In this document: positions 27,001 to 60,131 of the stretch, in pieces
Layout of the letters: the number at the start of each line of letters is the position of its first letter
How positions within the stretch are numbered: the first letter of the stretch is position 1
Assembly (NCBI GenBank): GCA_902634325.1
Contig: CACPJP010000003.1
Span: forward strand, 28,790 to 92,789
Direction of reading: 5' to 3'
Source of the DNA: an uncultured Pelagibacteraceae bacterium
Lineage (GTDB): Bacteria; Pseudomonadota; Alphaproteobacteria; Pelagibacterales; Pelagibacteraceae
Length of the DNA stretch: 64,000 bases
The notes under the pieces: generated by a model
Database searches by the model: none
Told to the model about the DNA's origin: nothing
What the model saw: the letters and a program-made list of their open reading frames with translations, nothing else
Made by a program: the position numbers and the translations under genes

Positions 27001-27029
27001 TATGTGGAGATTTAATTTGAATCTTCAAG
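27001..27029 (-). promoter_or_regulatory. Sigma32-like heat-shock promoter for hslVU
   Basis: On the minus strand, CTTGAAG (27029-27023, perfect -35 core), a 15-bp spacer and CCACATA (27007-27001), close to the CCCATNT-type -10. The -10 ends 7 bp before the hslV ATG at 26993. No Shine-Dalgarno is present. Confidence 0.6.
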
Positions 27030-41569: not shown

Positions 41570-41616
41570 CCCATCTTTGAGCTTGTAAAATCATATTTCA
41601 TCGATACATTTCATTT

Positions 41617-50347: not shown

Positions 50348-50529
50348 CTTGATAATTTTTTATAATCCAAAGAACCCCAATAAACATTAAAAAAACCTTC
50401 ATATTTATGTGATATTTTTGCAACATTTTATGAAAAAAAACACAAAACATCAATAAATCAATGAAAAAAATGGTCTTTTTGTTTAATTTTTCACTGTTTA
50501 TTTAAATAAACAAAAACATGGAGATAAAC
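50348..50529 (+). promoter_or_regulatory. Porin leader and promoter region with palindrome
   Basis: A 182-bp A/T-rich gap between DUF3576 and the porin. It ends with an 18-bp perfect palindrome TGTTTATTTAAATAAACA (50495-50512), then the Shine-Dalgarno GGAG (50520-50523). TTTTTGTTTA (50476-50485) can also pair with TAAACAAAAA (50507-50516), so two folds are possible next to the ribosome-binding site. Function unknown. Confidence 0.5.
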
Positions 50530-57518: not shown

Positions 57519-57547
57519 GAGAAGCTTTGCTCCTGTTAATTGTAGTC

Positions 57548-59467
57548 TTAGGCTCTTTTTTCTTTGTCTTCTTTTGTGTCTACGACTTCTGCATCAACAA
57601 CATTATCTTTTTCTTTATCGTCTTTATTATCTTTTTTATTAGCAGCCTTTCCATCAGATTTTTGCTGACTTTTGTAAACCGCTTCCCCTAATTTCATCGA
57701 GGCCTGAATTAAAGACTGAGTTTTTTTCTTAACCTCTTCTGTGTCTGTTCCTTTTAAAGCATTTCTTAGATCTGAAATGGCAGTTTCTATAGCTTTTTTC
57801 TCAGCTTCACTGATTTTAGAGCCATGCTCTTTAAGATTTTTTTCAGTGGAATGAATTATGGTATCAGCTTGATTTCTTGAATCTACCGATTCTCTTTTTT
57901 TCTTATCTGATTCTTTGTTCGCTTCAGCATCTCTAACCATTTTTTGAATTTCCTCTTCGGACAATCCACCCGATGCTTGAATTTGAATTTTTTGTTCTTT
58001 ACCTGTACCTTTGTCTTTTGCAGATACGTTAACAATCCCGTTTGCATCTATATCAAAAGTTACCTCAATTTGAGGAACACCTCTTGGAGCAGGAGCAATT
58101 CCTACAAGTTCAAAATTACCTAAAATTTTATTGTCTGATGCCATCTCTCTTTCGCCTTGAAGTACTCTTATTGATACAGCAGGCTGATTATCCTCAGCAG
58201 TTGAAAAAACTTGGCTTTTTTTAGTTGGTATAGTTGTGTTTTTATCAATTAATTTTGTAGAAACTCCTCCAAGGGTCTCGATACCTAAAGACAAAGGAGT
58301 AACATCTAAAAGCAAAACATCTTTAACATCACCTTGTAGTACACCTGCTTGGATTGCGGCTCCCATTGCAACTACTTCGTCAGGATTAACACTTTTATTA
58401 GGATCTTTTCCAAAAAAGTTTTTAACAGTTTCAACAATTTTTGGCATTCTAGTCATTCCACCAACTAAAACTACTTCGTTTATTTCTGCTGCTGAAAAAC
58501 CTGAGTCTTTAAGAGCAGTTTTGCAGGGTTCTAAAGTTCTTTCTACTAAACTTTCCACCAGAGCTTCTAATTTAGCTCTAGTAAATTTTAAATTAATATG
58601 TTTTGGTCCTGTCTTGTCGGCTGTAATGAAGGGAAGATTTATTTCAGTTTGTGTTGCAGAAGATAATTCTATTTTAGCTTTTTCTGCCGCTTCCTTTAAT
58701 CTCTGCAATGCTAGTTTGTCGGTTTTTAAATTAATTCCACTATCTTTTTTAAATTCTGAAACTAAATAATCTACAATAGCATCATCAAAATCTTCACCAC
58801 CTAAAAAGGTGTCTCCATTTGTAGATTTTACTTCAAATACACCATCACCAATTTCTAAAATAGATACATCAAAAGTACCACCGCCAAGATCATAAACAGC
58901 AATTTTTTTTCCACCTTTTTTATCTAAACCATATGCTAATGAAGCTGCGGTAGGTTCATTAATAATTCTTAAAACTTCCAGGCCAGCAATTTTTCCAGCA
59001 TCTTTTGTTGCTTGTCTTTGTGCATCATTAAAATAGGCTGGCACTGTTATCACAGCTTTAGTAACTGGCTGGCCCAAATGTTTTTCAGCTGTTTCTTTCA
59101 TTTTTTGAAGAATAAATGCCGATATTTGAGATGGAGAATATTTTTTACCTTTCCCTTCTATCCAAGCATCGTTCTTATCTGATTTAACTATTTTAAATGG
59201 AACTTTTTCAACATCTTTTTTTACAGATTGGTCATCAAAAGTTCTTCCTATTAATCTTTTAGCAGCAAAAATTGTATTATTAGGATTTGTAACAGCCTGT
59301 CTTTTTGCAGGTTGTCCCACTAATCTTTCATCTTTATCAAGAAAAGCAACTACCGAAGGAGTTGTTCTTTGTCCTTCAGTGTTTTCAATAACTTTAGCCT
59401 GCTTGCCTTCCATTATGGCTACACATGAATTTGTTGTTCCTAAATCTATTCCGATTACTCTACTCAT
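57548..59467 (-). CDS. dnaK: DnaK, Hsp70 chaperone
   Basis: A 639-aa Hsp70. [17 protein letters not shown] starts the nucleotide-binding domain, with [20 protein letters not shown] and [13 protein letters not shown]. The substrate-binding domain has [18 protein letters not shown] charged C-terminal tail ends EDKEKRA. Preceded by a sigma32-like promoter that ends 9 bp before the ATG. No CIRCE element was found upstream. Confidence 0.98.
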
Positions 59468-59476
59468 AATGCTTGA

Positions 59477-59505
59477 TATATGGGTGTTGTTTGTGTTTCT
59501 ACAAG
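59477..59505 (-). promoter_or_regulatory. Sigma32 heat-shock promoter for dnaKJ
   Basis: On the minus strand, CTTGTAG (59505-59499), a 14-bp spacer and CCCATATA (59484-59477). It matches the E. coli sigma32 consensus CTTGAAA-N11-16-CCCATNT well. The -10 ends 9 bp before the dnaK ATG at 59467, in the 45-bp grpE/dnaK gap. Confidence 0.72.
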
Positions 59506-59512
59506 ACGGTAA

Positions 59513-60091
59513 TTACTTTTTTTCCTCATTTTTTTCCTCATTTTTGCCTTCTTTTTTCACGCTTTTTTTAGAAACAGCAACCAAAGATGGTCTAAGCAGT
59601 CTTTCTCCCAACATATAACCAGCTTGTATTTCTTGTACGATGGTTCCAGCCTCTACATTATCATTTTCTATTTCCGTCATAGCTTGATGAAAATTTGGAT
59701 CAAATTTTTTCTTAGCCGTATCAATCTTTTCTATTTTATTTTTTTTAAAAATTGAAATTAGATCTTTTTCAATAATCTCGATATTCTTTAAAAACTTATC
59801 TAAATCTTTATTGCCTTTTAAAGCCGAATCATTTTTAATTGAAATATAGGCTCTCTGTAGATTGTCCAATATAACCAAGTTTTCTCTTGCAAAATTAAAA
59901 CCTCCAAAATCAATTGCTTCCTTAATATCTTTTTCAAATCTTTTTCTTTGGTTTTCTAACTCGGCAAGAGATCTTAGTAGTTTATCCTCAGTATCTTTAA
60001 GCTTTTCTTCAATACTCAGCTCTTTTTTTTCTTCCTTTTTTGGAATTTTATCATCTTTATTTTTTTTATCTTCGTCGTTTAAATTAGTCAT
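59513..60091 (-). CDS. grpE: GrpE nucleotide-exchange factor
   Basis: A 192-aa Hsp70 nucleotide exchange factor. A long N-terminal coiled coil (IPKKEEKKELSIEEKLKDTEDKLLRSLAELENQRKRFEKDIKEA) leads to FDPNFHQAMTEIENDNVEAGTIVQEIQAGYMLGERLLRPSLVAVSKK. Its end contains a KNEE repeat. Diverges from rdgB. hrcA, often next to grpE, is absent here. Confidence 0.95.
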   Translation of the reverse strand: MTNLNDEDKKNKDDKIPKKEEKKELSIEEKLKDTEDKLLRSLAELENQRKRFEKDIKEAIDFGGFNFARENLVILDNLQRAYISIKNDSALKGNKDLDKFLKNIEIIEKDLISIFKKNKIEKIDTAKKKFDPNFHQAMTEIENDNVEAGTIVQEIQAGYMLGERLLRPSLVAVSKKSVKKEGKNEEKNEEKK

Positions 60092-60097
60092 ATTTTC

Positions 60098-60126
60098 TAT
60101 ATAGTTATGAAATACTTAATTTCTAG
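60098..60126 (-). promoter_or_regulatory. Weak sigma32-like promoter for grpE
   Basis: On the minus strand, CTAGAAA (60126-60120), a 15-bp spacer and CTATATA (60104-60098), ending 6 bp before the grpE ATG. The -35 differs at one base from CTTGAAA, the -10 is poorer. Its layout mirrors those at dnaK and hslV. Confidence 0.4.
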
Positions 60127-60131
60127 GCCTT

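Follow-up and report, generated by a model that had tools for sequence, protein, structure and literature searches.

The question raised by the dnaK locus of this SAR11 genome is whether a heat-shock promoter ending just before the start codon gives an mRNA with almost no leader and, if so, whether this reflects a separate mode of translation initiation under stress. The window, a stretch of 64,000 nucleotides from an uncultured member of the Pelagibacteraceae, contains dnaK as the second gene of the co-directional grpE-dnaK-dnaJ operon, 45 nt after grpE, with the promoter standing in that gap (Table 1). On the minus strand, nucleotides 59505-59477 read CTTGTAG-AAACACAAACAACA-CCCATATA, followed by the nine nucleotides TCAAGCATT and the dnaK ATG at 59467. 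The start codon is correct: the amino-terminus it specifies is the standard DnaK amino-terminus, and the protein passes TIGR02350. No Shine-Dalgarno (SD) sequence is present in the 9-nt gap; the initial annotation, which had placed a good sigma32 promoter at this distance from a start codon lacking an SD, was right in coordinates and spacing. One species of the genus is represented by the single-cell genome AG-435-M21, which shares an identical DnaK with the relative G019.

Table 1. Positions of the heat-shock genes and their control elements in the window.
Feature	Coordinates	Strand	Basis or remark
hslU, 456 aa	25081..26451	(-)	TIGR00390, 610 bits; 2 nt after hslV
hslV, 179 aa	26454..26993	(-)	TIGR03692, 271 bits
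hslV promoter CTTGAAG-N14-TCCACATA	27001..27029	(-)	Core -10 ends 8 nt before the ATG
dnaJ, 377 aa	56385..57518	(-)	TIGR02349, 454 bits
Hairpin AGGAGC-AAA-GCUUCU enclosing the dnaJ SD (AGGAG, 57530-57534)	57520..57534	(-)	Contrast to dnaK inside the operon
dnaK, 639 aa	57548..59467	(-)	NCBIfam TIGR02350 / NF001413, above cut-off
dnaK -10-to-ATG gap, 9 nt, without SD	59468..59476	(-)	Sequence
dnaK -10 element CCCATATA	59477..59484	(-)	Sequence; core CCATAT and spacer of 14 kept in 27/27
dnaK -35 element CTTGTAG	59499..59505	(-)	Sequence; motif in all 27 dnaK loci of the genus
grpE, 192 aa, first gene of grpE-dnaK-dnaJ	59513..60091	(-)	Best E 3.6e-47 among NCBIfam GrpE models, short of their narrow cut-offs; gene order
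grpE promoter CTAGAAA-N14-ACTATATA	60098..60126	(-)	Core -10 ends 7 nt before the ATG

All 27 dnaK loci of the genus with a readable start have the full motif score, most of these genomes being partial and, as relatives, non-independent samples. The distance from the end of CCATAT to the ATG is 10 nt in 24 of them and 9 nt in the other three. The spacer is always 14 nucleotides long; its sequence drifts, while the distance to the ATG is fixed. Comparison of upstream spacing among relatives had been proposed as a check, with loss of the motif as the adverse outcome; the motif is not lost, and the spacing close to the ATG is kept for dnaK, hslV and grpE within the genus. An automatic count gives two SDs for the dnaK loci of the genus, both directly behind the -10, in bases that are predicted to lie outside the transcript.

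The promoter belongs to a small and specific set. The window has two exact matches to CTTGNA-N16-CCAYAT, one upstream of dnaK and one upstream of hslV, where dinucleotide shuffles give an expectation of 0.07. In 1.15 Mb of sequence from three genomes of the genus this strict pattern has nine sites, eight of which are directly upstream of groES, dnaK, hslV or lon. A looser scan of the geometry was run on three genomes of the genus (1.15 Mb) and on 0.4 Mb of a sister genus; among intergenic sites at most 120 nt from a start, it returned only groES, dnaK, hslV, lon and grpE. The heat-shock promoters share the geometry CTNG-N18-CCAYAT; when the five are aligned on the first base of the -35, CCAYAT falls at the same position in each, the exceptions being grpE of this genus, which has CTATAT, and one clade of lon, in which the spacer is one nucleotide longer. 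RpoH is encoded in the host genome (G000:C2:2788-3597; TIGR02392, 355 bits, above cut-off), and from these features we infer that the dnaK promoter depends on sigma32. The designation of the site as a good sigma32-type promoter is thus borne out by its sequence, its conservation and the nearly exclusive association of strict sites with heat-shock genes. The second match to the pattern in the host genome (C11:24536) was dismissed as chance; it lies antisense within an open reading frame that looks MraY-like by eye. ClpB appears to be absent, because a search for it gave weak cross-matches alone (HslU and others).

The layout recurs at three further promoters. For grpE, the core -10 ends 7 nt before the ATG in all 17 loci scored in the genus (gene starts of relatives were called with a regular expression, and several loci of grpE escaped it) and 7-10 nt before it in 49 loci of the family. 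For hslV the distance is 7-11 nt in 25 of 25 genomes of the genus, L176 being included by taking its upstream in-frame ATG, and for lon the end of CCAYAT is 7-12 nt from the ATG in 15 of 15 loci. By layout, grpE, hslVU and lon are near-leaderless, starting with AUG and lacking an SD. The layout at grpE and hslV had been pointed out before, and both are found, the grpE site at 60099-60126 and the hslV site at 27002-27029; lon, which had been missed, joins them. In one subclade (L160, L163, L165 and others), about eight codons ahead of hslV there is an in-frame ATG or an open frame that spans the -10 region, and the start could be misplaced there. The grpE gene and rdgB diverge from a 40-bp gap (60092-60131), in which the grpE -10, ACTATATAG, has near symmetry and could work in either direction.

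An accepted way to recognise leaderless genes in silico is a -10 placed some 10 bp ahead of the start codon (PMC3160421), and the -10-to-start distances of dnaK, grpE, hslV and lon all lie within about 6-12 nt. A study of transcription start sites (TSS) in S. meliloti accepted promoters ending 5-12 nt before the mapped TSS (PMC3616915); applied here, the same rule would give dnaK a leader of 0-5 nt, and grpE, hslV and lon leaders of about 0-3 nt in most genomes. The eighth base past the -10 is an A in 24/27 dnaK, 17/17 grpE, 12/15 lon and 18/25 hslV loci of the genus. If transcription starts at this base, the mRNAs of grpE (60091) and of most lon genes would begin at the A of the ATG, while the predicted dnaK 5' end, at best guess, would be near 59470, leaving the three-nucleotide leader AUU before the AUG. 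Near-leaderless mRNAs from these four promoters are likely, because motif, geometry, heat-shock-gene specificity and RpoH are all present, and the dnaK mRNA would probably be translated by 5'-end (leaderless-type) initiation. An A at -3 and a T at -2 precede the dnaK ATG in all 27 loci. The conserved ATH triplet was considered as an isoleucine start or as a mark of +1 and set aside as weak evidence; ATT directly before the ATG does not prove a start at -3, since dnaK genes with a leader often have it too (34/59). A literature search of a limited collection found no study of TSSs or leaderless genes in SAR11.

The same type of promoter precedes groES, but here a leader is present: the end of CCAYAT is 28-31 nt from the ATG in 26 of 26 genomes of the genus, and the leader of about 20 nt carries a strong SD in every one. 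A rule by which all sigma32 targets are leaderless fails at this gene. The third gene of the operon, dnaJ, also retains an SD, which sits in a 6-bp hairpin in nearly all variants of the genus. Thus the proposal that heat-shock mRNAs here are leaderless holds, by position, for dnaK, grpE, hslV and lon, and does not extend to groES or dnaJ. Across 18 distinct sequences of the dnaJ hairpin, 95% of cells pair and two pairs have changed on both sides, with a covariation score reached by just six of 500 shuffles; the single-sequence energy is ordinary (z of -0.2 to -0.5). Compensatory variants include AGGAGU-AAA-ACUUCU, in L009 and L024; in some species the hairpin is fourU-like (UUUUCU). Predictions of fourU-type SD hairpins before Brucella dnaJ and Staphylococcus groES are cited in PMC3280987. 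The dnaJ hairpin is a candidate SD-occluding RNA thermometer, a lead rather than a result. HSP20 was not found in the host genome, which is 61% complete. Of the 16 genomes of the genus searched, the host included, five (L305-L309) have hsp20 with a AAAGGAGG SD leader. In these five an upstream TTGCT could pair with the AAAGGAGG SD in a ROSE-like manner; an Rfam search of the hsp20 leaders matched no known thermometer.

Beyond the genus, the dnaK promoter stands farther from the gene. The other genera of the family have the same promoter with 16-32 nt to the ATG (42 in one case), and their dnaK leaders contain an SD-like motif (AGGA, AAGG or GAGG) in 41 of 64 rows, about two-thirds; in a related family (f2) the distance is 23-30 nt. 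The sister genus L029 retains a spacing of 23 nt, with AAAGGAAA. A quick DnaK tree, in which some forks have moderate support, requires three changes to the short form: one at the base of this genus, one in L070 (12 nt) and one in L076 (8 nt). Because sister genera keep their leaders and the tree puts the shortening at the base of the genus, the dnaK leader was lost in this genus; as read from the tree, the loss is derived here, with two further independent cases. L076 and L073 have near-identical DnaK proteins but -10-to-ATG distances of 8 and 23 nt respectively, so that outside the genus, too, a leader was deleted naturally and recently. Short spacing is seen for grpE across the whole family (mode 8 nt) and for hslV in three of four other genera scored; these short forms are older than that of dnaK, given their spread beyond this genus.

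SDs are scarce in general. In three genomes of the genus they precede 9-16% of first genes, against 3-5% for a control interval, yet the 16S tail, CACCTCCTT, is intact. These are direct counts, combined with footprinting over 18 genomes, since an expectation-maximisation search for sigma70 -10 boxes lacked the power to estimate what fraction of genes is leaderless across the genome. In the footprinted regions, inspected by eye, mnmG has a conserved -10-like TACATT 6 nt before its ATG, and a DUF3576-like gene may have a similar near-leaderless layout. Within the mnmE-mnmG gap (41570-41616), CATCTTTGAGCTTGTAAAATCATATTTCATCGATACATT, which includes this TACATT, is nearly invariant in the compared genomes of the genus and exceeds the length that a promoter would require; it may be a sigma70 promoter of near-leaderless layout or an element linked to the origin. 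The porin open reading frame probably starts 12 nt too early at 50518, the true start being the next ATG; ATGGAAATAAAC there matches the SD stretch AAGGAGATAAAC of its relatives.

Taken together, we consider it probable that an RpoH promoter internal to the operon was moved next to the dnaK ATG by loss of a leader of about 10-14 nt, and that the resulting near-leaderless mRNA would be a product of promoter compaction in a streamlined lineage, whose ribosomes would initiate mostly without SDs, rather than of a dedicated stress mode. Read-through from the grpE promoter would also reach dnaK and give it a long leader. That dnaK is mainly expressed in this way, translated by coupling or non-SD initiation while its internal promoter is weak or silent, agrees with the co-directional genes, their narrow gap and the conserved promoter of grpE itself. 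It is nevertheless unlikely: the dnaK promoter keeps its full consensus in all 27 loci while the spacer drifts, its counterpart persists across the family and the order at a different leader length, where a silent promoter would decay, and in this genus it is closer to CTTG/CCCAT than the grpE promoter is. That the motif is an ordinary sigma70 promoter, leaving dnaK outside RpoH control, is extremely unlikely; TTGTAG-N18-TATATC would pass as a poor sigma70 site, and the S. meliloti TSS paper notes that RpoH and RpoD motifs are alike, but neither the CTTG nor the CC of the -10 changes among dnaK, groES and lon (with slight variation in hslV), and nearly all sites found by the strict pattern belong to heat-shock genes.

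The initial annotation had gone further and suggested a different initiation mode under stress, in which leaderless heat-shock mRNAs would be selectively translated by 70S or altered ribosomes in the heat. In its favour, four of the five sigma32-type promoters are near-leaderless, against about 1-2 of 9-10 other first genes judged by eye (Fisher p 0.02-0.06, the heat-shock sample being small at five promoters). No stress-specific mode is concluded here, because groES and dnaJ keep their SDs, SDs are scarce across the genome, mnmG looks similar and dnaK is leadered in nearly all other genera. In addition, leaderless mRNAs are common in Caulobacter, where their translation in normal growth matches that of other mRNAs (PMC4117421), and the MazF stress-ribosome model was not reproduced (PMC9031893). 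Selective translation is thus very unlikely. A related idea, that dnaK, grpE, hslVU and lon through leaderless mRNAs, and groES/EL and dnaJ through SDs, form two routes whose different responses to stress set the balance of chaperones and proteases, is decidedly unlikely as well.

The promoter compaction that we favour has familiar elements. The promoters described here resemble proteobacterial RpoH promoters in their CTTG -35, their CCCAT-type -10, their targets (dnaK, groE, hslVU, lon and grpE) and the presence of an RpoH gene. The known classical RpoH promoters precede leaders with an SD; unlike these, four of five in this genus abut the ATG. Bacterial leaderless genes share the -10 about 7-12 nt before the ATG, the missing SD, the AUG start and the occurrence in alphaproteobacteria, known sets being the TA-led genes (PMC3160421), 375 leaderless in Caulobacter (PMC4117421) and 171 in S. 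meliloti (PMC3616915). Such surveys used sigma70-like -10 boxes or mapped 5' ends, whereas the evidence here is comparative and concerns a heat-shock sigma factor. Within SAR11, dnaK of the sister genera and groES of this genus combine the same promoter geometry with a leader, often carrying an SD-like motif.

The dnaK locus is a clear case of a core chaperone gene whose leader has disappeared from a single genus and persists in its sister genera, and the natural pairs make the costs and benefits of leaderless initiation testable. It also serves as a warning that a heat-shock gene without an SD should not be read as a sign of a stress-specific initiation mode, and it shows how promoters can become compacted in ocean bacteria that are very abundant and have streamlined genomes.
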